Shown: positions 9,477 through 50,110 of the stretch, piece by piece
How the letters are laid out: each line of letters begins with the position of its first letter
Numbering within the stretch: position 1 is the first letter of the stretch
NCBI GenBank assembly: GCA_014871385.1
Contig: CM026424.1
Location: forward strand, 19,821,945 to 19,885,944
DNA: 64,000 bases
Direction of reading: 5' to 3'
From: Ceratodon purpureus
Taxonomy: Eukaryota > Streptophyta > Bryopsida > Pseudoditrichales > Ditrichaceae
The notes under the pieces: model-generated
Told to the model about the DNA's origin: nothing
Databases searched by the model: none
The model's input: only the letters and a program-made list of their open reading frames with translations
Made by a program: the position numbers and the translations under genes

Positions 9477-9550
9477 CAATCCATTATTAAGTTATGATAA
9501 TATTCTTGATCAACAATCCATTATTAAGTTATGATAATATTCTTGATCAA
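9477..9550 (+). repeat. 37-bp tandem duplication inside the Helitron
   Basis: The block beginning CAATCCATTATTAAGTTATG occurs twice head to tail with a 37-bp period. 37 is not a multiple of three, so the duplication shifts the Rep reading frame. It is a likely inactivating change. Confidence 0.85.
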
Positions 9551-11147
9551 GATACTCTACTGGATGAGATTTCAACAAAGATTGGCCCTATTCTAGCTCA
9601 AAATATGTCCACAAATCCTTGGTACAAAACGTACAAATCTATTTTCAAACAAGCAGGAAAAAATACCAGCGTATGTGTACTATCTGCTGACATTGTCTCA
9701 AAAATCATGGAAACTCATTATACCAATTCTCTAACATTCGATACGATGAATGTACCAGAATCAGTTTACAATCTTGCTTTGATGTATAACATGAGTTCAA
9801 ACACAAATATGAAAAAACATGCAGATTATTATACAATTGGCAATGTTTGTAAGAGGAGCAATAACGAAGTCAACAATTGTGTTCCAATTACATTTTGGAG
9901 TAACGAGTTGAATGTGAATAACGAAGACATGACATTGGAATTAGCATTATTCCCATTTTTATTTCCTCATGGACGTGGTTTTTACAATGGAAAAACAACA
10001 TTCAATTAGTACTTGAAATTCAGAATGAAGACATTATTCTCTCCATTCACAATGTACAAACCATATTTGTTATACATATATGATGTAAGGAAATCTTTGC
10101 ATTTCATAAAAGAAACCTCAAAAACATGTCTAGACAAAGACATTAAAAGAACCAAGAAACAATTTCCACTGATGAATGAACAAGAGGTTCTTCAACATGT
10201 CACAAAGTACAATCTACCAAATTTGCTCATAGGCTCACCACGTTGGCACAAATCACAACTCGAAGATATTCTATCAATGGTCTCAAAGTTTGGAATGCCA
10301 CATTTCTTCCTTACACTTACGGCCGATGAAACCAGTTCATTACATTGGAGCGAAATTCAAACAATAGAGGACATCGCAAAAGATATCAATGGATCAATGA
10401 CATGGAAAGATTGTCCGGTTGAATGCGCAACTCTATTCCATGTGAGAGTTCAAAAACTGATGCAACAACTTCTACTTTGTGATAATCCCATTCTTGGTCC
10501 TATTGAATTATGTGATCCGCTAAGAATTCCAAGGCAGAGGGTCCTTACACGCTCACATTATATTATGGATGAGTACTCTAGAAGCTGTAAATAGAATCAC
10601 AAATGAAATTACCGCTATGATACCTGCAGCTTATGATCAAACTATGCAAAAATTCAACAAACCAGTTGATCCCTTGTAACTCAGTCTATGTAAAATGGTC
10701 ATGCGAAAACGATTACACAGATGTGGGAAGCGTTCCCAAAACAATAGGAGCAAATGGAAATATGGATTCCTATTTAACATTCACAATGAAAATCAATCTA
10801 CTATTGATTCTAATTCTAACCTTTGGACCTACTATCATCCTAGATATGAAGACCGCAATGTTGTTCCATACCATGCTACGTTGCTGCTCTTATGGAACGC
10901 CCATTTAAACATACGACATACCACAACCACGTATTGGTTTTACTATCTACTAAAGTACTCAATGAAATGTGAGCCATACGGTACAGTCGATCTAAACACC
11001 AAGAACACTAAAAGATTAGATTCCAAAATGTTTCTACTGCACAATTACAGCTCATTTCCTTACTTATCATTGCTAGACCAGTTATACCTACAAAAGCTAC
11101 AGTTACATGCCTACAAATCCCTACCATTCAAAAAAGCGTTCAAGTAG
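9551..11147 (+). pseudogene. Helitron Rep region (broken)
   Basis: The readable blocks match Helitron Rep. LELALFPFLFPHGRGFYNG and YLKFRMKTLFSPFTMYKPYL are split by a single TAG at 10007-10009. Then come NLLIGSPRWHKSQLEDILSM and FFLTLTADE. After a frame change near 10555, HAHIILWMSTLEAVNRITNE carries the HUH motif (His-x-His) of the nickase. After another change, YEDRNVVPYHATLLLLWNAH and YYLLKYSMKCEPYG follow, the last carrying the paired tyrosines of the Y-x-x-K-Y catalytic motif. The nickase residues therefore survive in pieces, but at least three frame breaks and several stops make the protein unusable. Confidence 0.85.
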
Positions 11148-11206
11148 TTACATATGTTGATACAAAACCACCCATTCTTCGAAGTAAAATTGTTACCAAA
11201 TCTAAA

Positions 11207-13217
11207 GTGTTAGGATTCCATCCTATAGATAAATACGCTAACAGACCATCTCAACGTGAAGAATGCACATTCTATACATATTTCAGCAACTACAAAACCG
11301 ATCGATTTAAAAGACCAAATTCAACTTGTGTTGCAAAAGATAATCTTGGCAACTATGTTTACAAACATAACAAGGTTATTCGATTCACAAATTTCCATCC
11401 GACATATAATAGTGAGGCGTTTTTTTTCAATGTTTTATTGCGTACATTATGCTTTAGAGATGAAAACTGTTTATTATCTACTGACAATAATACAGGAAGT
11501 TATGTGTACGAGTGTTACAAACGCAGATTAATCCACAATATAGATAGTATAATAACATAACTACATCAATATATAGAACGCAATTTGATAGAGACCAAGA
11601 ATTTGTCCCAATTCTTAGAAAGCCTGCTTCAAAAATACCCGTACTTGGATGTAGAACAAGAAACGAATATGAATGATTTCATAACAACCAAGGATGGAAC
11701 ACAATCTCCTGACCCAAGTCAACTACTTATAAATTCAAAATGTCCCCAACACTTTTTTGACATGAATTTCAAAGATATGAAACTAACTGAAGAACAACAT
11801 AACATTTTTGAAATCATGAATACAAATCCTTTTGGACTGCACGTACTAAATGGGACACCTGGAAGTGGAAAGACATATTTTATTCTATATCTTATACTTC
11901 ATTTTCAATCCAAGAATGAAAAGGTTTTACTATGCGGAACAATCGGACCTGCAGCTTTGGGATTGAGCAAATCTGCAAGCATTGCACATACAACATTCAA
12001 AATACCAGTACGTGGAATTCTTTCAAAAGACATGTAATTCTTTCAAAAGGAGTCGTAACATAAAATATTCAAGATCTCTAAGAAATTTCCAAAATATATT
12101 ATTTTTGGATGTTATATTAAGTTTACATTAAATGTTTTTGTAAAGTTTAAACACAAAACAAGAAATCTCAATGATGACAAGTTACATGTTCAGTGCTATT
12201 GTAAATCGCCTTAATCAAACCATGAGAATAAGAAATTCTGATGTTTTCCAAACAAAATTGCTCCTTCTTGTAGGAGATCTCTCACAACTTCCTGCAATAT
12301 GTACACACCGCCTCCGTAGGAGTGACTTAATTTGTAGAACTTGCCACATTGCGAGTAACCCCCTATGGAACATGGCTCACAAGCATGAACTATCAAATTC
12401 CGTACGTCATTCCACTAATCTAGAGTTTCTTCGATTTTTAAATATCGTAAGACAAACTATACCAACACAAAGTGAAATAGATTTTGTTTTATTAGGTTGC
12501 TTCAATACAGACGCTAAAATCGACGATTACATAACTAGTGATACTACCATACTGTGTACACACTGTGAAGATGTAATAAAATACAATAGCTTAGTATTCC
12601 ATAGAAAGCTCCGTCCTTCTGGAACAAGAAAAGTAACCATACTAACCAATGCATCAAACATACCAGACGTTGCAGATTGGTTGAATAATAAAAGACACAA
12701 CAATATAGAAATGGTTGCAATAGGATGTCTGGTTATGTTCACTGAGAATGTAAGCATTAAAAAATGTGCGGTAAATGGAGCTGTAGCCACGGCGGTCTCA
12801 TTATTGGATGATGAATTTGGAAATATTCAAACTATAATAGTTCAAATCCAAAACTTAGATGTCATCATGAATGTGAAGAGAAACACATTTAGAAACAAGT
12901 ACAAAGACAACAATGTTTACTACAAGGCAACATTTCCCATTGTACTTGAATATGCTATTACGGGCCACAAATCTCAAGGCGCTACAATTAGTCAAAGAGT
13001 TCTAATCGACATCAGAAAAGCGTTCGCTCCAGGCCATACATATGTCATGCTCTTTAGAGTAACCAACAGAAAAAACTTGAAAATAAAGGGAACCTTAATA
13101 CCATCCGATTTCATACCCTGCTACCTCTCTGAAGAGGATAGAAATGTGTCAAATGAACCTCCTTTAGACAATGAACTTGATGACTACTTGGTTGGCAAGA
13201 ATTTTATTTTCCTTTAA
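11207..13217 (+). pseudogene. Helitron Pif1-like helicase region (broken)
   Basis: The segment at 11207-11560 (YTYFSNYKTDRFK ... FFFNVLLRTLCFRDENCLLS) matches the linker before the Helitron helicase. At 11585-12037 the helicase starts, with LTEEQHNIFEIM and the Walker A motif GTPGSGKT. At 12171-13217 the remainder includes motif III (VGDLSQLPAI), motif V (YAITGHKSQGAT) and a motif VI remnant (MLFRVTNRKN). Between them about 130 bp of AT-rich non-homologous sequence interrupts the gene. The motif II region reads Q-E-I-S instead of D-E-x-S just before MMTSYMF, so the Mg-binding Asp is lost. The last piece is a long open frame of 348 codons. Confidence 0.85.
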
Positions 13218-28856: not shown

Positions 28857-29518
28857 GTGATATAACTATTACAGACCCAATGCAATCTTGGGATTTAATG
28901 AAAACGAATACACCAACTTTTTGATAAGATTGCGGAGCAAATGATTTTCATGACTTTAATGCTGGCACCCAATAATCTTATTCACCTACTCCGCAGCTAG
29001 TCGCGGGATCCGGATGCCCAGCGTTTAAATTACTGGCGAATTTTCGCTAGAAACTTACCTCATTTTGTGTGTGGCTCCTCATACACTAGGAAAATAGAGA
29101 AAAAAAATGGATGAAATCGCCAAAATCTTATGAAAATTTAACCAAATTCGCCACCTTTTGAATGAAAGTACCTTTAAAAAGAAAATTTTATGGATGAATA
29201 TGTTCAAATAGATGATTCCTCTTACTTGGCTTCATTCCAAGGTGCCTGTCGTGCTACATGTGAAAAAACAGAAAATAAACGCTGCGGATGCCTGGACGAT
29301 CACCGACGACACTCGTGCACAGTAAAAAGGACTGGAAATGGATAATACTATATTTGCTTGTCGGACTCATATTCTCTCAATACATTTACCAACAACAAAT
29401 GATTTGCAGAAATTCTTCAGTTAGATGTTCAGGATTCAGTCATCATAGAAAATGCAAATGCAAAGATGCAAAGATTCAAGTACGGATAACTTCTGGACGG
29501 CAGTGCGGGTTTACAAGG
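28857..29518. other. Non-coding spacer before inverted-duplication arm A
   Basis: No supported gene. The short frame at 29288-29521 has no recognisable motif. Confidence 0.3.
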
Positions 29519-29884
29519 TAACTTTGCTCACAATTCCAAGGGCCCGTTCAAAGATCATTCACTGAGATGTTTTAGAAACATCCATTCCATTCTAAGTGTA
29601 GATGGAGGCCAACACAGCTCTATGCAGTTCAATTCTCCAGTGCACGCAGCTCCTGATGATCAAACAAGTATATAACCTTAGAGAGTATGAGCGTACACCG
29701 GCTCTCTACGTACATGTCAGCACAGCGTCCGTGTATGGAGCGGAGGGAGGACCAAAGTCGAGTCAAAAATCCATTTATTTACTGTTGCAGGAATGCCACG
29801 GTCATGGGCCTCAGTTCCAGCGACCGGCCGGGCCAGTCAGATCCACGTGTACAGTCAGCCACGTGGCGTGGCGTGATTTGAGGA

Positions 29885-30248
29885 GCCGTCCTAGCTCAGT
29901 TGGTAGAGCGAACCGGATTAGTTTTTTTGATATTTTGTTTTGGATTGCTTGGGGTTTGGGCGGGGTTATCGCCTGCCCCCCAAGGGGTCTTGTCGGATTT
30001 TAGTTGTCAGTCTCTTGGATTGACTTCGGTTTTGTGTGGGTCCCCCCCCTTGTTGTCGCCGCAGGCTGACATGGCTCTGCCCTGACAGCCGCGTGGTTGG
30101 GCCGCAATGGCGGTTACGGTGGATGATTCTCATTCGTTGTAATTTGTTCGTTGCCTTTAATTTCATCCCTGATTGGGACTTTCAGCTCAGTTGGTAGAGC
30201 GCAAGGCTCTTAACCTTGTGGTCCAGGGTTCGAGCCCCTGGGGTGGCG
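29885..30248 (+). pseudogene. tRNA-Lys (CTT) split by a retroelement
   Basis: Removing the insert and one target duplication leaves a good 73-nt tRNA-Lys: acceptor GCCGTCC pairing with GGGTGGC, D-arm AGCTCAGTTGGTAGAGC, anticodon loop CTCTTAA with CTT, and T-arm CCAGGGTTCGAGCCCCTGG. As it stands, the 5' piece (29885-29910) has the acceptor strand and D-arm. The 3' piece (30184-30248) keeps the complete A box and B box but has GGGACTTTC-derived sequence in place of the acceptor 5' strand. It could still recruit Pol III but cannot fold into a tRNA. A TTTT near 30263 is a possible terminator. Confidence 0.9.
29911..30183 (+). mobile_element. 273-bp non-LTR insertion in tRNA-Lys with an 18-bp TSD
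   Basis: Flanked by perfect 18-bp copies of AGCTCAGTTGGTAGAGCG (29893-29910 and 30184-30201), i.e. tRNA positions 9-26. The insert has no open frame. It is GT-rich in its first half and ends without poly(A) in a small stem-loop TCCC-TGATT-GGGA followed by CTTTC. This ending resembles that of the full LINE in the other arm (ACCCC-GGT-GGGGT, then CTTCAC). I infer a 5'-truncated copy, or a SINE-like partner, of a related element. A SINE using the LINE machinery is the alternative. Confidence 0.75.
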
Positions 30249-30735
30249 ACACGTGTCCTCTCTTTTGGCATTTTGCATCACTTCCCAGTTTTGAGTTCTC
30301 TTCTTTCCTAACATTTTATTCTATATTTCCATTTCTTTCTTTGTAAGATGGAGGGCAAATCCAATCTAAATAATAAATGAGACTTTTTTTCAAACCAGCT
30401 TGGATTTGGACCTAACAATGCAATGGTGGGATTCAATCATAAATTTCTTTAATCATTTTTCACCATAAACACTCCAAAAAACTACCATTTCTAAATCAAA
30501 CACTAAGAAAATCATAACAAAAACTTTCTTTTCATTCCCAACTCTAGAATCTTACCTAAGATTACCAAAAGATCATGCATAAACGATTATAGAATATAGG
30601 GTATAGACTGCATGGATTGGAAAATCATAGAATATGAAGTAAGAAACATTCTCTTTAATATCCACTCCACCTAAATTTGATCAACACAATTTGACTTCTT
30701 TTGGTTTCAATTTTTAAGTAACATATGCTAACAAT

Positions 30736-32663
30736 GACATTTAACATTATTCATGTCCTGATTCTTGCATGTAATAAAGAACAATTTTTTTGCATTAAAA
30801 TTGAGAAGAGAGTGTAAATTAGGTCTTGTCATTTAATGATATATTTGTACCGCAAAAGAATGTTTTTGACAATCTCATTATATATCATTATTGTTACTTG
30901 TTTGAAAACTGCCAAAGGTACCTAATTGTGTGGGAAAATTGTTAGGTTTACATTGCTGCTCAATAACATTATTCATATCTCGACTCAAGGACAACTCACA
31001 GTACAAAGTTTATGGATCAACTTGTATTTTGTTATATTTGCAATTAGATCAAGGATAATGGCAATGGAGAATCGAAAACAATGAGACCCCGAAACCCTTT
31101 TACATCGGCGACACAAAACTAGGATATAGAATCACATTAGCAACGACATCTATAACTTTGTGGCTCACCGATACTTTCCAACACAAAGCGATCCCAAAAA
31201 ACGTACAAGAATAGGTCGATGAGAAGATGTAGAAAGGTAGAAACTCCTTAGAATAGTAGCCATGAATTGGCTAACTATGTAAAGGGGCCTCTCGGTCGGG
31301 GAATAGAGGATTATACTAGAGGATAGATGACAATGCAAATGATACAATATTCATGAGGAAACACTTCAATATGGCCTCATCCAATGCATATAGATGCAAT
31401 ATTCATGAGGAAACACTTCAATACGGCCTCATCCAATGCATATAGATGCAATATTCATGAGGAAACACTTTAATATGGCCTCACCCAATGCATATAGATG
31501 CAATCGGGATGGACCGATTTGAAATTTCAAATACCTAATTATTGTAGCGGTCCTATCAAATTTTTGGAACCTTTCAAACACCCCTAGATGACCAAGAGTA
31601 CACATTCAAATGGGACACCCCAATCAAAATATTCTTCACAGAAGAAACTCTTTAGGAATTACTTCGAGCAAACCTCCTCTGATACATCTGGTGCCAGAAA
31701 TGCCAATATGAACCAAATGACAAACCATTTCAAATTAGGAAAACAATGCTTTCAAGGCTTCAAAAACCACAATACACATTGGCAAGGAAGCCCGGAAAGA
31801 AACAAGAAGGGGACAATGTAAGCCTAAACGAAGAGTGGAGATGAGGACTATTCTAAGAAGAATCTAGACCAAAAGATACATTTTTGGTGCACTAGGAACA
31901 AACAAAATCAAGTGGCACTTAACTTCCCATCCAACATGGTTACCTCAACACCTAGTACATCAGTCCACCATATCCACTCAAGCCCTAGCAACAAATAATG
32001 AAAACTGAGAAGCTAACACTCCAAAAGATCTCCAATTAGATAGATTTTATAGAGCTATATACACGCTATTTGATAAAGTACTCCACGACCCCAATAGAAA
32101 TACATGTAGCAAAAAGAAACCTAGACAACAAAAACCAACGACACACCCCTCATGGCTCACGCACATGATACCAAAACCCGCCGCCCAGGCTGCGCCCCCC
32201 TCCCGCTAAGCCAAGAAGCGGCGCTTCTTTGAGGGCTCGGGAGAGAGGGCTTGCGCGAGGTGCCTGGGCAGGGGGCACAGCTCATCCACAGCCCAGTGTA
32301 TGGGCAGCCACGCTGGGTTGTGGGAAAGGGAAAAATCAACGGGCAGTCCCAAAAGTTTGTGGGCTGCCCATTTGTACCCCTCTGTACAGAGGCAGCTTGG
32401 TTGAGTTTACTGCGAGCTATCTTGTTTGTGTCATTTTTGCAGCCAACATCAAACGCTTTCTACAAGGTGAGTTTCTATGTTTGTCCAATTTCGTTTTTTT
32501 GCATGTGGAAGTTCTTTAGATCTACTTGATATTTAAATGTTCACAATAAAATGAATTGTTGTTATCATGCCTTTTGTCCTAGAAAAGATTTCTTCATATT
32601 TTAGGGTTGCAATTTTGAAGATTTTTCAAATCTTAGGGTTCATGGGAAGAGTTTTTTTGTTAG
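30736..32663. other. Spacer DNA left of the Harbinger element
   Basis: AT-rich, with one clear minisatellite (31341-31496, listed separately). Around 32160-32400 there is a GC-rich patch with repeated GGGCAG/CTGCCC words that might belong to the left end of the Harbinger element. I could not match it to a right end. Confidence 0.3.
31341..31496 (+). repeat. 52-bp minisatellite, three units
   Basis: Three head-to-tail copies of a 52-bp unit that includes CAATATTCATGAGGAAACAC and CTCATCCAATGCATATAGAT, with a few substitutions between copies. There are no spacers between units, so this is a simple tandem array. Confidence 0.9.
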
Positions 32664-36035: not shown

Positions 36036-37232
36036 TTATAATGGAACCGGATCCGTTCTCAGAAGTGGTTTGTTCGTCAGTTGACAGAAGTTGTGTAGAA
36101 CACAACAACCTATAACTATAGAGGGTGCGGTATCTACCCTAGAATTTAGAGAATTAAGAATGCGCCATCCCATTTCCAATAATCCAAAAGCATTCTCAAT
36201 GCTTACTCTACCACCGTTTATTTGCCTATCAAACCTTATTTTGTCTACATCTCCATCTGCCGGCTTGCTATTTTGAAGCAAATAGGTTCTACTAGGGTAC
36301 CCTAAATCACCTAGTAAAAAAGGCTTGATATGTGTTCCATCTACGCTGACCACTGGCGTAGCCAATATTTCTCTCCGTCAAATCTGCTCATAAATATGTG
36401 AGATCTTAAATTGATCTCCATCAGCAGTACCGCCAGGTACCGAGCAACACACATTCCAAAATACCTTGTCCATGTCACAAACAACTTGCAGAACTATGGA
36501 ACTAAAACTTTTCCTTCTACACCAGAAATCTGCCACTACAGTTATTTGACGTTTATCAAGCTTTCTCTGAAGAAGTATGTGGCTTCCATCTATACTCCTG
36601 CACACATTTGGAAATCCACAACTCTCTACATATCCAGCTATAATCCTATCTAAACGAGCACCGGAAGGCACCATAATATACTTCCCAAATAACTTGTCTC
36701 TAGATACTAGAGCATCCAAAACAATTCTCATATACTTACGTACTGTTGAAGCACCTACATTAAACCTATCAGCTATAATTTCTGCAGTGATTCCATGAGC
36801 AAGACGGTAGAACACTATACCGACCGCTTTTCTAATTTCTAAAGGAGCACATACAAAGTAAATAGTAGTAGATTGCAAATAAGGCTCAAGCTCTGAGACC
36901 AAATACATAAAAGATGCATAAGACATACGATATGCTTGTAAGTATTTTCTATCTCTCATCTCTGGTGAAGTGTGCTATACCAAGCCTTCAATAATGTCCC
37001 ATTGTGTTGATTGTCGAGGATCCTTCCACCAGACATATTCAGGTTGCGGCTCAATCAAAGAGAGAATGGCTATAATAATTGGGAATACCCTCACCATGAA
37101 AGGACGTTCTTCCAAAATTGAAGAACTTCCCAAAAGAGCTCTCTTTCTCTTCCTTGACATACACCTTAATGTCACTCCATTGAAAAGAAAAAATGACAAA
37201 ATAAGTGCCCACATCACCTCATGTGTGTCCAT
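36036..37232 (-). pseudogene. PIF/Harbinger (HARBI1-like) DDE transposase, two stops
   Basis: One frame of 399 codons from the ATG at 37232 to the stop at 36036, broken only by TAG (about 36977-36975) and TGA (36380-36378). The N-terminal helix-turn-helix part contains VRKYMRIVLDALVSRD. The DDE nuclease motifs are visible: first Asp in CRSIDGSHI, second Asp in GGTADGDQFKISHIY, Glu in GGRVSIENAFGLLEMGWRIL. A length near 400 residues is normal for the family. Both stops are one C-to-T change away from CAG and CGA, so the gene probably died by two point mutations. It acts in the nucleus with the Myb-like partner. Confidence 0.88.
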
Positions 37233-38233: not shown

Positions 38234-38801
38234 TATGCTCTTTTGGTGCGTCTATGAGGATCCTACTCTTGAAGGGTGTGATGAGGACGATGTTGCCGTT
38301 GTCAGGGTCGAGGCTGATGGTGTTGTTGTTGCTCAGGGTAGGAAGGAGAATGGCCCTGATTGCTTTCTCTTTGAAGATGGAGATTTCTATGACAAGGCTC
38401 CCTTTGATTTTGTCCCAAATGCTTATTGCCCCTCGGCACACTGTGTAGTGTTTTTCTCTAGTGTAGGATGTTGAACAGGATGAGGTTACTGTTGTTCTAC
38501 ATCTGCATTGAATGACTTAGGTTTTTGACACTATTATTCTACATTTGCATTGAGTGACTTAGGTTTGGACACTATTGTACAACATTTGCACTGAGTGACT
38601 GAGGTTTTTGACACTATTGTTCTACATGTGCATCCAGTGACTTAGGTTTTGGACATCTACTTAGGACGGCAGGTTTTTGGATTAGTTTTGAATAGGTACC
38701 GCGTCAATCTAGTTCATCTAGAAGATTAGTTTTGAAGCCACTTGGTGGATCCATAGTTGAACGACTTGTTTGATATAGAATAAAATGTTAGGAAAAAAGA
38801 G
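38234..38801. other. Spacer with a 42-bp tandem repeat
   Basis: About four degenerate copies of a 42-bp unit (TCTACATTTGCATTGAGTGA, then CTTAGGTTTTTGACACTATT) lie at 38491-38662. At 38773-38801 there is a 29-bp block matching 39211-39239, at the inner edge of duplication arm B. No gene is supported. Confidence 0.6.
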
Positions 38802-39350
38802 ATTGTTAGCATATGTTACTTAAAAATTGAAACCAAAAGAAGTCAAATTGTGTTGATCAAATTTAGGTGGAGTGGATATTAAAGAGAATGTTTCTTACTT
38901 CATATTCTATGATTTTCCAATCCATGCAGTCTATACCCTATATTCTATAATCGTTTATGCATGATCTTTTGGTAATCTTAGGTAAGATTCTAGAGTTGGG
39001 AATGAAAAGAAAGTTTTTGTTATGATTTTCTTAGTGTTTGATTTAGAAATGGTAGTTTTTTGGAGTGTTTATGGTGAAAAATGATTAAAGAAATTTATGA
39101 TTGGATCCCACCATTGCATTGTTAGGTCCAAATCCAAGCTGGTTTGAAAAAAAGTCTCATTTATTATTTAGATTGGATTTGCCCTCCATCTTACAAAGAA
39201 AGAAATGGAAATATAGAATAAAATGTTAGGAAAGAAGAGAACTCAAAACTGGGAAGTGATGCAAAATGCCAAAAGAGAGGACACGTGTCGCCACCCCAGG
39301 GGCTCGAACCCTGGACCACAAGGTTAAGAGCCTTGCGCTCTACCGTGAAG

Positions 39351-39363
39351 ACCCCACCGGGGT
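39351..39363 (-). other. 3'-terminal stem-loop of the LINE
   Basis: On the element strand, ACCCC-GGT-GGGGT lies six bases from the end of the element. In some LINEs a 3' stem-loop is the recognition site of the reverse transcriptase, which would fit the absence of a poly(A) tail here. The role is inferred. Confidence 0.55.
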
Positions 39364-39630
39364 TTAAAAAGCATGCGCAAAACGCGCTGATACAAACGGG
39401 CGAACCCGGGCCAGGCCAACAGGCCAGAGAGGGACAGACAGCCACCGGCCCGACAACAGCAAACAGGGCAGCAGCAAAGGAAAACAAAGTAACGAAGACC
39501 CAAGCCTAACCCGAGGAAACCGCAGACACAACTAAACGAAGCGCAGGTTCAGACCGCAGACCGCCAAGTTCGGAGGAGATCGGGACGGAGCGCAGCGCCA
39601 AGCAAAGAAACCTGCAGGAACACAAGCAAA

Positions 39631-42600
39631 CTACCGCGGATGACGACGCCCCAGATTGAAGTACCGTCGGCCTTCCGCCATCCACATGTTGAAGTTGTCC
39701 CCGTCGAGATGCTGAGCAGTCGAAGCGTACACCTCCAACGCAGTGAGGCCGATGAAGTTCGGGTTGGCGCGGGCACGGCGAAGGATATCCGGGAGGTTTG
39801 CGGCCGTGTAAGGAGTGTCGTCCAGAGCCTCGCGGATACGCGTTTCCGCCCGGAGGCGTCGAGACCGGGAAGCTGGAGAGCTGGGGGGCGAGAGAGCAGC
39901 GAGCTCTTGACGACGTTCCAACTCTATATCAGCAAGTAAGGTGTCGATCTCCTCTTGTAAATGAGAGTCAATCAGTCGGGCTGAAGCCGGACTAACCTCT
40001 CTTCTGACGTCCTGTATTCTCTTTGTCACAGTAGTGAGAGAGAAGAGTTCTTCAAGACGGATATGGCGACTTGTGGCATCCGAGTAGGGTTCAGGGGCAG
40101 GATCTGGGACCCCAATCGGAGGCGGAGGAGTATGGGAGGGTGAGTCCTCCGGAGTAGGAAGGTCAGGGCGGTCCAAGTCCGCCTGAACCTCAGCGAATAA
40201 CCCTGTAATGGCCGCATCCAGCACATCGCTGTCCACTGAGAGGATAGAATCCCTATCAGTGTTGCAGGACTGGGTGGGGATTTGCTGTAGAAACCGAGGG
40301 GTATGGGTGGCCAGAGCCTGTGGAAGATAAACCGCGGGAGGTATTATTTTCCAACAGGGTTGGTCACCCATGGTGGCAAAGATTCCATCTCGCGTCCATA
40401 GCTGTTCGAAGTCAGCAAGTAGTTTAGCTTGTCGAACCTCGCTTCGTTTGTGTCTGTGGATGGACCTCCATACCTCCATGCCGACATGGATACAGTCCTT
40501 CCAGGCGAAGAATAGGGCTTTTCCAAGACTGAACTCAATGCCGTTCAACTCCTGCTGGCATTTTTGAACCCAAAGCTGCCACAGGAGTGAAGCCCGCAAG
40601 ATTTCCCATGGAGTGTTAGGATTAACCATAGCGTCACCTGCTATCCAGGGATTAGCATCTTCGATGGTGAGATGTCCTGGAGGATGGCAAAGGCCATACA
40701 AAAGGTCTCTCCAAGTTGAGTAAGCAGCTGGGAGTGAAGCAGTACTGCGCAAGCTCCTGAAATGCTCCCACGCAGCCGAGAGGGTGGGGCAAGATATGAG
40801 TGCGTGCTCGGTATCTTCTGTGGGATGTCCACAAAGTTTACATTGCCCCTCCCAACCCGCTTTTGCACGCCAGTCACCTATCGGAAGACCGCCAGCCAGT
40901 GCGAGCCAATTCATGGCCGCAATTTTGCGGTGCTTCCAGGGGTGCCATATGCGCCGAAATAGTTGCTTGATCTGTATTGTGGTGTAGCCCCTGAGTCGAA
41001 GGTCGCGAACCGCTCGCAGATTGTTTTGAATACGCCTCAAGCCATGTTTATAACCCTGCTTTGTTTCATAGTTGAAGAAGGTGGATTCAGGTAGCACTCC
41101 TATCTTAGCCCAGTTCCAGTCGATAGGATCCCAGTCCAAGGCAATGATAGGTGCGTTACCATACATCCATACCGACTCTTCTTCAAGTGGAGCGCGCGTC
41201 GGGTTATATTCTACAACTTGCTGTTTCAGTCCAACCGTGAGCAGTACCCGAACCTGTTCTAAGCGAAGGTTGGGGATCGGCCGGGGGTGAGAATTATCCC
41301 AGCGAAGCACTTCGGAGGGTAACCGGAAGTACCTCGTGCCCAAAAGACGAGGGGCAGTCTCTTGAATGTGGTAGACGACATGGATTGGACCCGTCGTGTC
41401 TGCTGTGACCCATTCCCCGATAGTGAGCGAGAGGGGCAGTGCAGGAACTCGAGGGATACCTGCTAGCAGGTAGTCTCGTTGTCGGTGCATAATGCGAGAG
41501 TGCGTCTGTATTCGGAGCTGTTCCTCCGATTTCCAGTTGCGCTCCTCTCCATCCCAAATGTCCTGAATAGTGGCCGTGTTGTGTGTTGCCCAGGTACAGA
41601 AGGGGGAGTCTTTCTCTGCGCCGTATAAGAGCCCTGCTGCATCCTTGAAGAGAGGGTTGCCGAAAAGCTGCTGTCTGAGAAATTCCTTGGGATGTGATGG
41701 AGGTCGCTGCACTAAGCCAGTACGAGTGTTGGTAAAAGCTTGGAAGGTGGCGCGCCAAAGCGGTGAGGCTTGGGTTTGAGCCTGTGAGGCATTCATCAAC
41801 CAGTGAATGGACGCCGGCCAGCGCTTTTGATTCGTCATCTTGATGAGGGATATGTGTCGCCGGATGAACGTCTTCCAGGGAGCATAACCCGGTTTCAAAG
41901 CCCGCACTAGAATCTTTGTAAGTAAAGCCGAGGCTTGCATTGTAGGGTCGATGATCTTGACTCCACCCTCCACCACCGGTTGGATTGCATTCTCCCAGCT
42001 TATTTTCGCCCTCGTTTTCTGTCCTGGAGCAGCTCCCCAGATAAAGTTGCGTACTAATGCTCGTGTTTGTCGAAAGACTGCAGCCGTTAGGTTGGCGCAC
42101 GAGCACAGGTACCAAATCGAAGCGAGAACCACTTGGTTCGCAACCATGATCCTGCCAGCGAGAGACAAGGTATGTGCGCTCCAGCTGGTTAGGGCTTTGG
42201 TAATGTTGCTGATGACCTTAGTGTTAAGTTCTTCTGTGGATAATTGGTATCCAATAGGGAAACCTAAATAGGTCGCAGCCTGTCCCGGATTTAACCAGCG
42301 AATGCCCGGGTCCTCTGGCCAGAGCCATGAGCGAGGTGTGAGTGAAGCTCTGATACAGACCGTTTTCCCCCAGTTCATCTTGGCACCGGATGCCTTACAA
42401 AAGAGGTTAAGGATCTGCATAGCGGTGTTGAGATTCTCCGCTTCACCCACTAGATATAGAGAGGTGTCGTCTGCAAACATAGCGTTTGTGGACGTCTCTC
42501 CGTTTGGAAGCCTAAGTCCTTGCAGGTTGCGTGTTGGATCGTCCAACATATGTCCTAGGACATCTGCAATCAGAAGGTAGAGATATGGCGCCAAGGGGCA

Positions 42601-44646
42601 TCCTTGGCGCACAGATCTCTGAAGGTTGAAGGCCTTCCCTGGCTTGCCATTGAGAAGAACGGCTGATGCAGCTTCTGAATACAAGGCCATCGTTAGGTTG
42701 GTCCAGTGACTGGAAAAACCCATATGAGTCATGGTGTCCTTAAGAAAACTCCAGCTAACACGGTCGTACGCCTTTTCAAAGTCAAGGAGTAAGAGTGTTA
42801 ATTTCTGCTTGCTCGTAGTTGCCCAATCCAGCGCCTCGTTTGCCATAATGATGTTGTCAAAAATACTTCTACCTTTCACAAAACCGGTCTGAGTCGGTTT
42901 TATCCATAAAGGTAGAAAAGTAAGCATTCGGCCAGCCATCAATTTGGCTAGAATTTTATATGTTGTGCCCAGTAAGGATATGGGACGGTAATTCGGGATA
43001 AGTGTTTTATCTCCCCCTTTTGGTAGCAAGCTAATCAGGCTTGTGTTTAGCTCCTTGCAGAGAACGTAAGTCGTGAAGACTTCAGTAATCCAGGCAAGGA
43101 GATCGTCTTGGATGTCGGGGAGAGCAGCCTTAAAGAATTCGATAGGAATTCCGTCTATCCCAGCTGCTTTGCCATTCGGGAGGTCTTGGACCGCCTTCTG
43201 GACTTCGAGGAGAGTGGGTGGAGCGTCAAGGATGGTATTCTGTTCGGTTGAGACGCACCTAGGTACGCTGCGAAAACATTCATCCCGTGCCGTGCGCTGC
43301 TCGGTCCCCTCCGGTTCTTGGCTATAGAGCCGTTGATAGAAACTGTCCACATGGTCTTGCATGTCCTCATGTTGAGTGAGAATACTGCCATCTGCTGAAA
43401 GTTCTCGTATGACAATGGGCTTATGCTGCCCCGAATAGTAATCAAAGAAGTCTTTAGTGCACCTGTCCCCCACCCGGGTCCAGGTGGCCATAATCTTGTC
43501 ATACTTGCGTTCTATGCGTCCTTGACGGACGCATTGAAGGGCAGCTTGTGCGGAATTTAATTGGTCCCTTGCAGCCTGAGAGTCCCAGTTAGATTGTAGA
43601 TGTAATTCTGCCTCTGCAAGTGACGAGAACTGCTCCTGGAATGTGTCTTCACGGACTTTCTTCCGGGTTTTAGCCACGGAGTCACAACACGTTCGGACTG
43701 CTTCCAGAGCTTTACTAACTTTGGTGTTCCAGCTATCTGCAGAGTGACGGAGAAGTGCTGATTTCCAAGCGGAGATCATCGCAAGACGAGCCTCCTCATC
43801 TTGAAGAAGGTGACGGTGAAACTTAGGAGGAGAATGTATCCGGGTTTCGAGGTTCCGGATACGCAGAAAGACGGGCGCATGATCTGAGAGATGAGCCGAA
43901 GTTGGAAGAATGCCGGTGAGTCCTCCGAGGTCCCGAATCCCAGGTGAGGTATAGAACTTATCTATCCTCGAAATTATGTTTTCTGGGGGGTCCCTCCGAT
44001 TATCCCAGGTATACTTCTTGCCTTTAGTTTTTCGGTAATCATCTGAAAGATATACATCTTGCAGCGAGTGTTGAAGAACCAAGGCATGCCATGCGTCGAT
44101 TTCTCTTCTGCCCCGTCCTGTTGAATCTGCTCCTCCTAGTTTGTCCGTTAAATTCTCAATCATATTAAAATCTCCGCCAAAAATCCATTGAGCTTCGGGC
44201 AGTGGGAAATTCCGGATGCGGTTCCAGAGTCGAGATCTGGAGCCCGTCTTATTGTAACCATAAATATTAACTATGCCAACTCTGCGTGTGGGCGTCCATT
44301 GGAAGACCACATACTGAGCTCGGCCGGGTGCTATGATGCCATGCTCAATGATCAGATCACCGAGCTTAGGCGAGATGATGATGCCTGTACCGCCCTTATA
44401 GCCATCTGTAGAAGCCGAGTAGTGAGCCGCATTCCACAGGATGGGTCCATGCATAAAATGTAATTGACGGGTTTTAGAAAGGCAATCTTCGTGGACGAAC
44501 TTGTGTTCCTGTAACAGGACAACGTCGGGCTTGGGGTTGAGGTGTTGGAGTAAATCCGCTATGTCTCGCCTCTTCCTCGTCCCTGCAGTGTCTCGCCCAA
44601 GGCACTGCACGTTGTAAGTGACCAGGGCTAGCTGGTCACTGGGCAT
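39631..44646 (-). CDS. LINE ORF2: endonuclease, reverse transcriptase, zinc finger (1,671 residues)
   Basis: Starts MPSDQLALVTYNVQ and is uninterrupted. Residues 1-262 form an APE-type endonuclease (QEHK at 46-49, GGDFN at 157-161, SRIDK at 226-230, LSDHAP at 253-258). Residues 475-750 form the reverse transcriptase (NGKAAGIDGIP, QTGFVKGRSIFDN, DFEKAYDRVSW at 622-632, RQGCPLAPYLY, catalytic FADD at 724-727). A zf-RVT finger lies at 1269-1286 (C-x2-C-x8-H-x4-C, CKLCGHPTEDTEHALISC). It makes the nick in target DNA and primes cDNA synthesis there. After the finger there is an unusually long tail of about 385 residues, Pro/Ser-rich and then Glu/Arg-rich helical, with no domain I recognise. No RNase H motif was noted. 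The start overlaps the end of ORF1 by 19 nt. Confidence 0.93.
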   Translation of the reverse strand: MPSDQLALVTYNVQCLGRDTAGTRKRRDIADLLQHLNPKPDVVLLQEHKFVHEDCLSKTRQLHFMHGPILWNAAHYSASTDGYKGGTGIIISPKLGDLIIEHGIIAPGRAQYVVFQWTPTRRVGIVNIYGYNKTGSRSRLWNRIRNFPLPEAQWIFGGDFNMIENLTDKLGGADSTGRGRREIDAWHALVLQHSLQDVYLSDDYRKTKGKKYTWDNRRDPPENIISRIDKFYTSPGIRDLGGLTGILPTSAHLSDHAPVFLRIRNLETRIHSPPKFHRHLLQDEEARLAMISAWKSALLRHSADSWNTKVSKALEAVRTCCDSVAKTRKKVREDTFQEQFSSLAEAELHLQSNWDSQAARDQLNSAQAALQCVRQGRIERKYDKIMATWTRVGDRCTKDFFDYYSGQHKPIVIRELSADGSILTQHEDMQDHVDSFYQRLYSQEPEGTEQRTARDECFRSVPRCVSTEQNTILDAPPTLLEVQKAVQDLPNGKAAGIDGIPIEFFKAALPDIQDDLLAWITEVFTTYVLCKELNTSLISLLPKGGDKTLIPNYRPISLLGTTYKILAKLMAGRMLTFLPLWIKPTQTGFVKGRSIFDNIIMANEALDWATTSKQKLTLLLLDFEKAYDRVSWSFLKDTMTHMGFSSHWTNLTMALYSEAASAVLLNGKPGKAFNLQRSVRQGCPLAPYLYLLIADVLGHMLDDPTRNLQGLRLPNGETSTNAMFADDTSLYLVGEAENLNTAMQILNLFCKASGAKMNWGKTVCIRASLTPRSWLWPEDPGIRWLNPGQAATYLGFPIGYQLSTEELNTKVISNITKALTSWSAHTLSLAGRIMVANQVVLASIWYLCSCANLTAAVFRQTRALVRNFIWGAAPGQKTRAKISWENAIQPVVEGGVKIIDPTMQASALLTKILVRALKPGYAPWKTFIRRHISLIKMTNQKRWPASIHWLMNASQAQTQASPLWRATFQAFTNTRTGLVQRPPSHPKEFLRQQLFGNPLFKDAAGLLYGAEKDSPFCTWATHNTATIQDIWDGEERNWKSEEQLRIQTHSRIMHRQRDYLLAGIPRVPALPLSLTIGEWVTADTTGPIHVVYHIQETAPRLLGTRYFRLPSEVLRWDNSHPRPIPNLRLEQVRVLLTVGLKQQVVEYNPTRAPLEEESVWMYGNAPIIALDWDPIDWNWAKIGVLPESTFFNYETKQGYKHGLRRIQNNLRAVRDLRLRGYTTIQIKQLFRRIWHPWKHRKIAAMNWLALAGGLPIGDWRAKAGWEGQCKLCGHPTEDTEHALISCPTLSAAWEHFRSLRSTASLPAAYSTWRDLLYGLCHPPGHLTIEDANPWIAGDAMVNPNTPWEILRASLLWQLWVQKCQQELNGIEFSLGKALFFAWKDCIHVGMEVWRSIHRHKRSEVRQAKLLADFEQLWTRDGIFATMGDQPCWKIIPPAVYLPQALATHTPRFLQQIPTQSCNTDRDSILSVDSDVLDAAITGLFAEVQADLDRPDLPTPEDSPSHTPPPPIGVPDPAPEPYSDATSRHIRLEELFSLTTVTKRIQDVRREVSPASARLIDSHLQEEIDTLLADIELERRQELAALSPPSSPASRSRRLRAETRIREALDDTPYTAANLPDILRRARANPNFIGLTALEVYASTAQHLDGDNFNMWMAEGRRYFNLGRRHPR

Positions 44647-47481
44647 ATGGAGTTGGAAATGGGGGTTCTCCCCCCCCCCTGAGTCAATCTAGCTGACTCT
44701 GCACTCGCTTGCTCAAGGAGCCCGCCCCAATCATCGTCATCGGTAGCAGGTTCGATAGGGTCTTCATCGGCCGAAGATTCCCCCAGTGGGACGAATCCTG
44801 TTGGTGGATCATTCGGATCGACTTGCCATGGCAATTCGTTCTCCTTGGGGAGACGAAGAGGAGGGTTAGGTCCCATGAAGTAAACTTTTTCCTCAGGTTC
44901 CAGAACCCAGTGATTCAACCGTACGCTGGCTTGAATTGTATACGGAAACCGATCGTGCAGGGTTTCAGGTATAGCAGTCCATTGGTAGTTGCTCGGGCTG
45001 CGCATGGTGAAGACGGATTTGTCGTAACGGATTAGGACCAGCCAATAGTTGAGTGCTTCCCACTCATTGATCCTATTCATTAGGGGAAAAATCAGGTCTC
45101 CAACGGGCCTTGTAAGACAGCCCGGATTAGGTGAGCTTCCTGCCCGCTGACACTTCTCTTCGAAATCTCATTGGTCGATATCCTGCCCGCTGACAACAAA
45201 ATTCGCCTCGCTGACAGCAGGATTCGCTGACAGGAGGATCCGCTGACAACAGGATCCGGTACTGTCCAATGGGGTGATAGCAGTGGGCACACGGTCGGTG
45301 ACAGTGTCATTACTGCTTATATTGTCCAATGGGGGGGTGGGGTGGGGTGGGGTGGGGAAGGGAAGCGATTGGCTGGACCCCCCAAATGCCAACTGCTGTC
45401 ACTGCTGGCAGCATTTGGCGACCTGCTGGCACAGTTGGTGCCAGCAGGTAAAGTGCACGGGCATGCCCAAAACTTTGGCACGGAAAGCATGGAAAAGGCC
45501 CGTTGGAGACCCCAAACTGCTCCTAATGCCAACTGTATATCCATTGGGCATCTGCCCAGCGTTGAAGCTGATTCTCATGCTGTCGTTTGAGTTTAATGTG
45601 GTCCCTAAGATGCCACATGGTCTGGTTCAGCATGAGTGTCTGTGCTTCAAGAGTCGTCCATTGCCTTGCAGATGTTTCGTGAGAGAGCCAAAAACTAACA
45701 ATGGGGCGTTTCCTTCCCGATGTTTTGTTTTGCAGCGTCTCATACAGATGAGGTTCCTTAGCCCCTCGGAAGATGACCGGGATAACAACAGCTGAGGTAC
45801 GTGTGAACGATGCTATCCAATTCACTTGGAGGGCCTGCCACAAAGCTTCTCGGATGCGGATGGTTCTGTACCCGTGCGGTCCCGGCGGTGTAATTTGGAT
45901 AGGAGCTGCAATGGGAGTGTTCGGCACTGGTTGCCAGACTAATCCTTCTTGAGAGGTCTGTGTTGCAGGCCGAATGGTGGACGGAGAAGGATCAGAGACT
46001 GGAGATGAGGACGTCCTCCGGGCAGTGGGGGGCGTTGCTTTCTTCTTGGTTTTCTCCGCAATTCTTTCTTCGGCCGGTCGTCTCGTAAGAGGGCAGCGGG
46101 ACACCAGGTGATCGAAGGAGCGACAGCGCTTGCACTGTGTGGGAAACCCACTATACTCCAAAGGATACTCCAGGGTACCCTCTGCCCCAATTTTAGGTAT
46201 AATAATGGTTTTAGGCAGCTTGTTTAATGAATCTGAAAGTATCCGAACCCTAGGTCCGGAAAGTTTTGAGATATAAGATTCTGATGTATCTATCGCTAGG
46301 ACTTCCCCCAGGGGACTAAGGGCTTCGGAAAGGAATGCCTTAGTCTTCAGAGGTTGTGGAAGGCCTACGATTTGCGCCCATAGAGCTATTTTGTGTGTTT
46401 CCTGTTGAGGGGCTTCAGGGTCGAAGTATGGGGACCACGCTGAGAACGTGATGATCTGACCATCACAAGTGTATGTGCGATCCGTCAATGTAAGAGTCCT
46501 GCCCTCCTCTTGGGAAAATTGAACTTCAAAAAAGTTGCTGCTGCGCATTGAAAGAGAAAGGAACGACCTGTGTAATCTAGTGCTGGCCCATTTCCTTAAT
46601 CTTCTTGGGCCAGGGCATTTGCCTTTTACCTGACCCAAAACCATGAGATCTGCTGTTTTTGCAAATGTAGTCTCCAGTTCCGCTAAGAGCTGGGCGCTAA
46701 GATTAACCCTGAGAGGGGCTGGAGAATCATCTGCTTCTGCTGCTCCTGTGTCATCTAAGGGTTTCTCCGGGAGCGGAATTTCAGGCTGCTTCAATGCTGG
46801 GGGCTGAGGATAAAATTGTGGAACAAACCTAATGAAATCGGGGGAAACTCGAGATAACATAATCCGGAGGTCCTCCTCTTCCGAGCGGGCCTGTTTAAGT
46901 CCTAGCTCAGCATGCGCTTGAATAAAAGCGGCAGTCCTGTCTCGAGTGAGTTGAACTTGTTGCTGAAGGAGTAGGAAAATGTCGAGGTCGGCGGAGTCCC
47001 AGACTGTCGCCAGGTTGCGCCGAGGTGAGCCCTCCAGCGCCGTGACATTCTGCGCCGCAACGCCAATGTCTAGCGGGACGTCTCCCGCCTGTCTTGATTC
47101 CGGGGAATAAGCATGAAGCACCGAATTGCAATGGGAAGGTACGGGTATTACCTGGGACGGTGCTTCATGCGGAGGTTGAGTTTCCTCTGGGAGACGGAGA
47201 AGGTCCTCTGGCGAAGCGCTGTTCTTCTCCTCTCGGAACGCCGTCGCGGCTGTCAACGTCTGTCCTCTAAGTTGGCCTGAAGCCGAAAACGTTGACGAAC
47301 CTGAAGCGGCTAGCAGCACTTGGCTGCGAGTGCGACTCCGTGTCGAATACGGGGCCTGGTACTCCTGTGAATTTTGCGAATCTCCGCTACAATCTGATGG
47401 CCCGGCTCCAGTCTCAAGTGCAAGCATTTTGCCCTTGAGTTTCTGGGCTTTGGCCCGGCCAGCTCCTCCTTCCGGTGCCAT
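44628..47481 (-). pseudogene. LINE ORF1 (DUF4283 plus zinc knuckle), interrupted by a TIR element
   Basis: RNA-binding Gag-like protein of the LINE. The first true ATG is at 47481 (MAPEGGAGRAKAQ); the open frame extends a little further upstream through a GTG. Residue numbers below count from that GTG: a variable Pro/Ser-rich N-terminus, a DUF4283-like domain at about 285-450 (RSFLSLSMRSSNFFEVQF, then TFSAWSPYFDPEAP, then ALWAQIVGLP), and a CCHC knuckle at 471-484 (CKRCRSFDHLVSRC). A 451-bp TIR element at 45528-45078 then introduces a stop right after QWIYSWH. The remaining C-terminus (INEWEALNYWLVLIRYD to the stop at 44628) follows the insertion. The ORF1 protein is truncated by about 150 residues. 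Confidence 0.85.
45078..45528. mobile_element. 451-bp TIR element (MITE-like) inside LINE ORF1
   Basis: Imperfect inverted repeats of about 34 bp: the left reads CATTAGGGG...GGTCTCCAACGGGCCTT and the right end, read inward, CATTAGGAGC...GGTCTCCAACGGGCCTT. The interior is non-coding, with repeated CGCTGACAACAGGATC-like words, a TGTCCAATGGGG word present twice, and a GGGGT run. No clear target duplication is visible, so the superfamily is undetermined. It must be younger than the LINE insertion. Confidence 0.7.
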
Positions 47482-47630
47482 ATGGAGTCCAAATGGGACG
47501 GGAATTCGTGCAACCTGTGCTCCGAGAGATGCAGGTTGCGCCACTGGCGATTGCGGGAGTAAACTAAAGAATGTCGATAAGAAAACTGGTTGCCTAAAGA
47601 TTCGGATCTGAGAAAAGAGAGAAGAATGTT

Positions 47631-47655
47631 GCGGCTCCGCGAATTGCGGAGCCGC
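47631..47655. other. Perfect hairpin at the LINE 5' end
   Basis: GCGGCTCCGC and GCGGAGCCGC form a 10-bp stem around a GAATT loop, directly next to a C7 run (G7 on the element strand) and the tandem target-site copies. Such a structure in the 5' leader RNA would be very stable. Confidence 0.8.
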
Positions 47656-48098
47656 CCCCCCAGAGCCTTGCCAGAGCCTTGCGCTCTACCCAGAGCCTTG
47701 CGCTCTACCAACTGAGCTAGGACGGCTCCTCAAATCACGCCACGCCACGTGGCTGACTGTACACGTGTATCTGACTGGCCCGGCCGGTCGCTGGAACAGA
47801 GGCCCATGACCGTGGCATTCCTGCAACAGTAAATAAATGGATTTTTGACTCGACTTTGGTCCTCCCTCCGCTCCATACACGGACGCTGTGCTGGCATGTA
47901 CGTAGAGAGCCGGTGTACGCTCATACTCTCTAAGGTTATATACTTGTGGCTTGGTAATCATCAGGAGCTGCGTGCACTGGAGAATTGAACTGCATAGAGC
48001 TGTGTTGGCCTCCATCTACACTTAGAATGGAATGGATGTTTCTAAAACATCTCAGTGAATGATCTTTGAACGGGCCCTTGGAATTGTGAGCAAAGTTA

Positions 48099-50110
48099 TC
48101 TTGTTTTTATAAGTTCCATACATTCATTGTATAAGTGTGGTTACATTGTGTTTTTAATGTTTGGTTGTAGAAATACCGTTAGGGTAGTTTGAGCCGTATC
48201 CAATAGTTTGGATGTTTACAAATTGTTCAAAAAGATGTTTGATGTATGCCTTTGATAAAACAAGTCAAGGTTTAGGAGTGTGGAGTATTATTTATTGAAA
48301 GCTAGATTAATATATTACTATATTAATTACAAATTATGAATATTACATCTTTTTTTAAGAAAGACAAAGAAAAATCTTCTTTAACTTCCAGAGTTCTAAG
48401 ACAACCAAAATGGCCGTTTGTAATTTTGGTTAGGCCACCATGAACGCATTTTATTTTTAGATTTATTGAGACTTTTTTGGGTGGTAGATGTGGATGGTAG
48501 CTTTTCTAAAAGTTGCTACACGCAACATTTGGACTCACGGTTCATGAGTTAGAGCGTTTTAAAGATTTCAGCCGAACTGTGGGCAAGCTCTCGGCCACTA
48601 TCAATGCAGCAAATTCTGCCCAAAACTGCCCAAAACCGCCCAAAATTTCAAAAAAAATCCAAAATCTGCCCAAAGTCAAAACTTTGAAATTCCACCAAAA
48701 ATTGAGATTTACATAATTTTCAAAAATAAAAAATTCTATGTATAGAGAAGGCAGTAGAGCATGTTCCCACCATTCGAATTTTCAATCTAAGAAATTTTTA
48801 ATATGCTATTTTTTTGTCAAAAAACGGCCTCTGTTTGTGAATTTCAGCTTACCTTCTAGCGGAAAATGATATTTTTGGCAACCTTCCACAATGTTATTGA
48901 ATATGATATTTTTTGGACATGTACCTAACTCACTTTGGAACAAGAATATGGAGATACTCATTCCATATCTACTTTAAAAAATGGTTTTTTGGGCCTTCAA
49001 AACTCCGCTGTCATCTTTTTGCGCAGGGATAGAAAACTTGTTTTTCAACTTTGAACGTTACGATCTTGCAATTGGTGAGGAATGAGTGTGTAAGATTTGG
49101 TGGACATGGAGACATAGAAGTTAGCTACAAGATCGTACGGTTAGATGTACTAAAAAAGACCCCAAGTTTGCAAAAGCCACCTTGCTTTGAAGAAGGGCTG
49201 TTTTGAGGAAGTTTTGATGAAAAATACCCTCAGAACTTTAGGGGTTAAGCTTACATTATATGATGCATTTTACAAATACATTACTTTTTAGATTTTTGAG
49301 GTAGACTATTTTTTGTTTCTTCATATATCATTTTGAAGGATTTTAAATCCTACAGGGAAACTCTAAGTTTTTCAAAATGTTAAACATTGTTGAACTGGAA
49401 AAATAATTTTTTTGATGAATAGTGATCTATTTGTACTTTCATTTTAAAAGTCTTTCCAAGTGTCATGGTCCAATACAAATTCAAAATAAATATTAAGTGA
49501 TATCTCGATAGTTTTATGTTTTGTACTTAACTATGTATGTATTTGATTACATAACGTATACCCGTATGTCAGCTTTTGGTAATCACTTACAACATTCTTG
49601 TAAAGTTTCCAAGACTAATCACCGTGACACTGCTACTAAGGTTTAGAAAGCCCCTTGCAACTAGTAACGTACAATAGTATTGTGATGTGTCTTCAAATTG
49701 CCGTTCTCTGCTTTGGAGATCCTGGCTCTTCAATGAATTGCTGCTGCTCCTCACCTGGAGGAGGTAGTGCTTCGGGAGTGTGCCACTCAGGGTGTGCAGG
49801 CACTTAGTTAGGCCGATCTAGTCAGAATATAGCCCAACTGGGTACTGGCTGTAAGTGACGATTTCTGTCACAGAAATGAAAATTTGATTGAACTGCTACA
49901 GGAAGCAAAGACCTTGAAACTCAGTTAGTTTTCTTTCTTTTTTAAAAGTTTTACACACTGATTAATTCAATAAATTCAGTTTTTGATAAAAAAAAAAAAA
50001 TACAAATTAAATTTTAGAAATCTAACTAATATATTTGTGATTATCAAAAATAAAAAAAACTAACTTGATTGGATTAAGTGATCAATATGTGATAAATGGT
50101 TTCATATAAA
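48099..50110. other. AT-rich non-coding stretch
   Basis: About 2 kb with no supported gene, TIR pair or tandem array. Confidence 0.35.

Follow-up and report, generated by a model that had tools for sequence, protein, structure and literature searches.

The moss Ceratodon purpureus carries an L1-type long interspersed nuclear element (LINE) that splits a transfer RNA gene, tRNA-Lys(CTT), in a 64,000-nucleotide stretch of contig C4 (C4:19821945-19885944, hereafter the window) of an assembly of 362,488,568 bases in 151 contigs. Relatives of this element sit at fixed positions inside tRNA genes, bounded in paired copies by identical target duplications; they are found there far more often than chance would place them, and the position depends on the clade of the element. 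With such a family in the genome, the window insertion is one of many and not an accident. We conclude that the window element very probably belongs to a diverse L1 lineage of the plant type whose members target tRNA genes by inserting within them.

An L1-type LINE inside a tRNA-Lys(CTT) gene

The element occupies 39345-47661 on the minus strand and belongs to a subfamily that inserts in the D loop of the tRNA, at nucleotide (nt) 18. Upstream of it the 5' part of the tRNA gene (nt 1-35; 47692-47726, minus strand) ends with one copy of the target duplication (47692-47709), and downstream the 3' part (nt 18-73; 39289-39344, minus strand) begins with the other (39327-39344). The initial annotation had described an L1-type LINE splitting this gene with an 18-bp duplication of tRNA nt 18-35, and the coordinates of the two parts bear it out. 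The duplicated 18-mer, GGTAGAGCGCAAGGCTCT, is found on the minus strand at 47692-47709, 39327-39344 and, as an extra copy, 47673-47690, and on the plus strand at 30193-30210; a shuffled-sequence control gave no match with up to two mismatches allowed. The extra copy is part of a tract at the 5' junction (47662-47691, minus strand) that consists of G, the full 18-mer (47673-47690), GG and nine nt of the 18-mer. The 3' terminus is a hairpin, CCCCGGTGGGG, followed by TCTTCAC (39345-39362, minus strand), without poly(A). A perfect 10-bp hairpin, GCGGCTCCGC-AATTC-GCGGAGCCGC, stands at the extreme 5' end of the element (47631-47655).

A second interrupted tRNA-Lys copy lies in the same window. The locus recurs as an inverted duplicate that has an insert of its own, at 29513-30742 on the plus strand (inverted repeats I1-I3, both flanks 99%), and the flank of the minus-strand 5' tRNA part matches this duplicate up to 29910. 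In this duplicate the 5' part of the tRNA (29885-29910, plus strand) ends with a different 18-bp duplication, AGCTCAGTTGGTAGAGCG (29893-29910), which lies 9 nt upstream of the window element's duplication in the tRNA; the 3' part (30184-30248, plus strand) begins with its second copy (30184-30201). Between them is a 5'-truncated LINE of 273 bp (29911-30183, plus strand) of the position-10 subfamily. Over 262 nt the insert shows 72% identity to the 3' end of two larger elements (L054/L055). The reverse transcriptase (RT) of these two shares only 49% identity with that of the window element; two subfamilies have therefore struck one recently duplicated tRNA gene. Because the 273-bp element splits the tRNA of the duplicate locus, the tRNA-Lys that ARAGORN called at 30177-30248 is a chimera of the element end and the tRNA 3' part. 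Close inverted duplicates occur at several tRNA-Lys loci: in the window (29513-30742 and 38795-48104), at L001/L002 and at L005/L006.

Relatives of the element end in tRNA genes

An RT-domain search of the genome gave 88 scored matches among 1024 first-look candidates. We read the 3' flanks of the best 20, window copy (L039) included, a sample of the most similar copies. Fifteen of these (14 of 19 without the window copy) are fused within a tRNA gene, with seven kinds of tRNA represented. A strict detector, requiring the T arm plus the anticodon arm, found 13 fusions (Lys-CTT 6, Ile-AAT 2, Ser-GCT 2, and one each of Lys-TTT, Leu-CAG and Leu-AAG), and hairpin ends read by eye added L051 (Thr-TGT) and L056 (Lys-TTT), both missed by the detector. 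Two of the 20, L048 and L050, have N where the 3' end should lie and were unreadable, leaving 18; for the same reason the "open frames" of 3072 and 6595 residues at these loci are probably artefacts, and we set them aside. Four more RT matches are linked to junctions by position only (C2:23987780, C8:2989094, C9:10268268 and C8:2731733, the last to a 5' junction only). Finding 15 of 18 readable matches in tRNA genes, window copy included, has a p of about 1e-42 under a guessed and generous 5000 tRNA genes, a value that assumes independent insertions, an assumption weakened by copies in arrays. The fraction of other copies in tRNA genes had been proposed as the measure of targeting, and 14 of the 19 best RT relatives fused inside such genes support it; a majority of copies at random non-tRNA sites, which would have spoken against targeting, appears in none of the RT, hairpin and tRNA-Lys samples.

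The terminal hairpin gave a further sample. Its exact 15-mer, CCCCGGTGGGGTCTT, occurs at 14 sites in the genome, the window copy among them (reversed-pattern control 0). Eight of the 14 run into a tRNA 3' half (Lys 4, Ser-GCT 3, Ile 1), and at L063 the hairpin is followed by 19 nt of tRNA-Lys that diverges afterwards. Structure prediction for 17 element tails ranked the hairpin first in 13. A Leu-type junction pattern was found at six genome sites (control 0); this pattern contains tRNA sequence and is therefore not an unbiased sample.

We also counted from the side of the target, using as probe a 23-mer from nt 18 of tRNA-Lys(CTT) with at most one mismatch, which has 71 sites in the genome (control 0). 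For 64 of the 71, all but seven units of one array, we examined the 40 nt upstream: the 5' half is intact in 46, and 18, about a quarter, are interrupted by a LINE 3' end. Two of the 18 lie in the window. By position, eight are of the nt-18 type, nine of the position-10 type and one, L081, of a third type; L081, L101, L103 and L105 were "other" by the regular expression of the census, and we took them for LINE ends on visual reading. With only 63 of its 18830 candidates scored, a genome-wide Rfam tRNA search was unusable as a census. Three tandem tRNA arrays carry LINE insertions: C5:18191520-18203504 (G000; Lys-CTT and Ser-AGA, 856-bp unit), C11:7691194-7698194 (L041; Ile-AAT, 627-bp unit) and C8:2951216-3010996 (Lys-CTT, unit of about 1725 bp).

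Paired junctions and an empty site

Empty and filled copies of one site can be compared directly at L001 (empty) and L002 (filled), which are inverted and 4 kb apart. Identity between the two copies is 99.75% over 401 bp of one flank and 99.87% over 767 bp of the other. The flanks overlap by 19 nt, of which 18 are the 18-mer and one is a base that matches by chance, and they enclose a truncated element of 532 bp. An exact nt-18 5' junction pattern, defined as the 18-mer followed by a base other than T, occurs at six places (control 0), with G as the next base in five. Four of the six pair with 3' junctions that carry the identical duplication: the window copy, L002 and two elements of about 7.9 kb on C5. 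The corresponding position-10 pattern occurs at three places (control 0), two of them with 3' partners. In arrays we compared the 600 nt past the junction with the next intact unit and found 600/600 identity at L041, L043 and L055 and 599/600 at L042. The DNA past the junction thus equals the neighbouring unit, which makes the tRNA in arrays the target and not a tail of the element.

Insertion position follows RT clade

Thirty loci were placed in an RT tree, in which those of known target cluster according to where they insert. One group inserts at nt 18 (Lys, Ile, Ser), another at position 10 (Lys, Thr) and another before the anticodon stem (Leu); position 10 also appears in a second branch, with Ile. 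RTs that are 96% identical are found in both Ile and Lys genes. RT clade is a better guide to insertion position than tRNA kind. Genes split in the position-10 way retain the A box as well as the B box. Together, a fixed position in each clade and free switching of tRNA kind may point to recognition of the shared A box and D arm or of the RNA polymerase III (Pol III) complex.

Two further features of these relatives were noted. L041 and L042 are 96% identical in RT protein and only 82% identical in the DNA downstream (the end of open reading frame (ORF) 2 and the 3' untranslated region), a contrast hinting at recombination between subfamilies. In L044, L046 and L047 the long 3' region of the element includes a stretch that resembles a tRNA and has A-box-like and B-box-like motifs (GGTTCGAAACCG); in L046 and L047 it lies about 640 bp upstream of the 3' end.

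Coding capacity of the element and other features of the window

ORF2 (39631-44646, minus strand) is open over 1,671 residues, as initially annotated, and contains an apurinic/apyrimidinic endonuclease (APE)-type domain at its N terminus, an RT and a zf-RVT domain (PF03372, PF00078, PF13966), the combination expected of a plant L1 ORF2. Pfam listed no nuclease other than the APE type at E <= 0.1, and the best match among solved structures in the PDB is human L1 ORF2p. ORF1, 673 residues as read (45523-47544, minus strand), contains DUF4283 (PF14111, 2.1e-12, above the cut-off) and a zinc knuckle that is weak and below the cut-off, a pair that we scored as a plant L1 ORF1. Its stop codon lies within an insert of about 450 bp (45078-45528, minus strand), which has 34-nt imperfect inverted-repeat ends (79%) and no target duplication clear to the eye, and which appears to break ORF1 of this copy. 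A 150-residue ORF (44628-45080, minus strand) is a candidate for, and probably is, the detached C-terminal part. The description "full-length" accordingly holds for the extent of the element but not for ORF1, which is not intact. Judged by the domains of its two ORFs, the window element is of plant L1 make-up, without the 3' poly(A) tail of plant L1 elements: we saw no A run at any fusion read. A search among viral contigs found no relatives.

The insert in ORF1 is rich in CTGTCAGC-like repeats. Elsewhere in the window, decayed Helitron-like open frames lie at 9494-13217, which we take to be Rep/helicase-like, and a 193-residue ORF (36378-36959) presumably resembles a Harbinger-type transposase.

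Discussion

Several observations weigh against tRNA targeting by this lineage. The best 20 RT matches were chosen as the most similar of the 88 scored, and are not a random draw; among them L044 and L045 show no tRNA fusion within 7.6 kb, and the tRNA-like site at L049 is doubtful. L054 and L055, with RTs 99.8% identical, may be one insertion amplified with its array. Five of the 14 CCCCGGTGGGGTCTT sites are without a recognisable tRNA (L059, L060, L061, L062 and L064, of which L060 and L061 are one inverted duplicate pair), and the terminal hairpin is not the best fold in L043, L051, L052 and L058. Two nt-18 5' junctions on C8 have no 3' partner that we could see, and L054, L055 and L084 are among the position-10 copies without a 5' partner. 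The 18-bp 5' junction predicted for a tRNA-Ile insertion has no match in the genome, and L052 matches the next tRNA-Lys(TTT) at only 301 of 600 nt past the junction in an ungapped comparison.

The hairpin sites without tRNA, together with the two unfused loci and one doubtful locus among the 18 readable RT matches, speak for an ordinary dispersed plant L1 that landed in one tRNA gene by chance. We find this barely credible, as 15 of the 18 readable matches are nevertheless in tRNA genes, 18 of 64 tRNA-Lys sites are interrupted, the duplicated window locus was struck again by another subfamily, and four copies have identical duplications at both ends, which with the tRNA-Lys census already contradicts a chance landing. 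The precision and recurrence of the fusion could also mean that the tRNA half belongs to the element, as a tRNA-derived 3' tail like that of a short interspersed nuclear element, and tRNA-derived sequences are common in retroelements. A tail is extremely unlikely, however: elements with 96% identical RT carry different tRNA kinds, the DNA beyond the tRNA is that of the neighbouring intact array unit (600/600 at L041), 5' parts of the matching tRNA stand upstream with the duplication, and an empty site exists (L001).

Selection might produce a similar distribution if LINEs inserted widely and survived only in redundant tRNA genes, and tRNA-Lys(CTT) does have many gene copies, some of them in arrays. 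Survival alone would hardly be expected to yield an insertion point that is precise to one base and depends on RT clade, and a 362-Mb genome should offer plenty of other safe DNA; we consider this account very unlikely. Targeting from within the gene could itself be achieved by the endonuclease reading DNA directly or by Pol III factors on the A box. The insertion positions lie in or near the A box, the Lys, Ile and Ser tRNAs share the position of the D-loop GG insertion, and there is an analogy in TRE5, whose ORF1 protein acts with TFIIIB (PMC5911963). The four paired nt-18 copies, by contrast, are base-exact and inside the gene, which brings them closer to direct DNA readers such as Dada (PMC3706591). 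Recognition through Pol III factors is in our judgement quite possible, if somewhat doubtful.

We suggest the following mechanism for insertion by the tRNA-targeting lineage, a form of target-primed reverse transcription with which the data agree. A protein of the element would nick the non-coding strand at the left edge of the duplication, a point in the D arm that is constant within a clade; depending on clade, the nick would fall before nt 18 (as for the window element), at about nt 10 or, in the Leu-tRNA clade, just before the anticodon stem. The site could be recognised by direct reading of the DNA or with guidance from Pol III factors, here TFIIIC bound to the A box. The nick would then prime reverse transcription of the element RNA, which has a short hairpin at its end rather than poly(A). 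A cut in the other strand, presumably the later of the two nicks, would fall 18 nt downstream, which for the nt-18 type is within the anticodon loop, and copying of the single-stranded 18-nt overhang would close the 5' end. At the 5' junction of the window copy, RT may have jumped repeatedly onto the free overhang, leaving the extra target copies. The tRNA gene would be left interrupted by a LINE that reads in the same direction as the gene.

The dictyostelid TRE5/TRE3 and NLTR-A/B elements, which lack long terminal repeats (non-LTR) and belong to the L1 clade, are directed to tRNA genes and insert beside the gene, 2-150 bp away (PMC5911963, PMC5006619). The moss LINEs are alike in clade and in being directed to tRNA genes, but insert inside the gene with base-exact duplications; the window insertion, with nt 18-35 duplicated, does not keep the set distance outside the gene that characterises TRE elements. 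The initial annotation held tRNA targeting by non-LTR elements to be best known from Dictyostelium, and it is well known there, but the NeSL clade is also published, with NeSL-1_TV (tRNA-Pro), LIN15_SM (tRNA-Arg) and LIN25_SM (tRNA-Glu) (PMC4640811). Each of those families is named for one tRNA, whereas one moss clade uses several tRNA kinds. NeSL elements belong to a different RT clade and have a C-terminal restriction-like endonuclease and no APE domain, an arrangement not found in the window element. Dada DNA transposons also enter tRNA genes, where they insert at the A box and in the region of the anticodon (PMC8869645, PMC3706591), but they have a DDE transposase and a duplication of 6-7 bp, whereas the ORFs of the window element encode LINE proteins; only the choice of target is convergent. 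The zebrafish non-LTR element Dewa is directed to the tRNA-Leu spacer (PMC3706591), in contrast to the moss LINEs inside the gene.

With plant L1-clade LINEs the moss elements have in common APE, RT and zf-RVT in ORF2 and DUF4283 plus a weak knuckle in ORF1; they differ in having no poly(A) at the fusions read, tails that mostly end in a hairpin, and fixed tRNA positions. We class them as target-specific on the 15 of 18 readable RT matches and the four identical duplications, with five of 14 hairpin sites as exceptions. In the open-licence PubMed Central literature, a scope that leaves out Repbase and subscription journals, we found no plant L1 group inside tRNA genes, and in one of two papers on tRNA-directed retrotransposons (PMC5911963, PMC5006619) the word "plant" does not occur.

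If this lineage does target tRNA genes, plants and the classic L1 type join the short list of LINEs that aim at them, and do so distinctively, with insertion from inside the gene and several clades each with its own position. We are evenly divided over a broader possibility, that in this genome a whole L1 radiation is tRNA-specialised, each clade keeping one position (about nt 10, nt 18 or before the anticodon stem) and switching freely among tRNA kinds, and that tRNA arrays may be at once a refuge for LINEs and a buffer for the host. The system would make it possible to test directly how an APE-type endonuclease acquires its sequence specificity and how the position of the target evolves independently of the gene that is targeted, and its natural pairs of empty and filled sites would be useful for studying closure of the 5' end. 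It would also be a source of candidate enzymes for targeted insertion at redundant sites, and would bear on tRNA gene dosage and the evolution of tRNA arrays.

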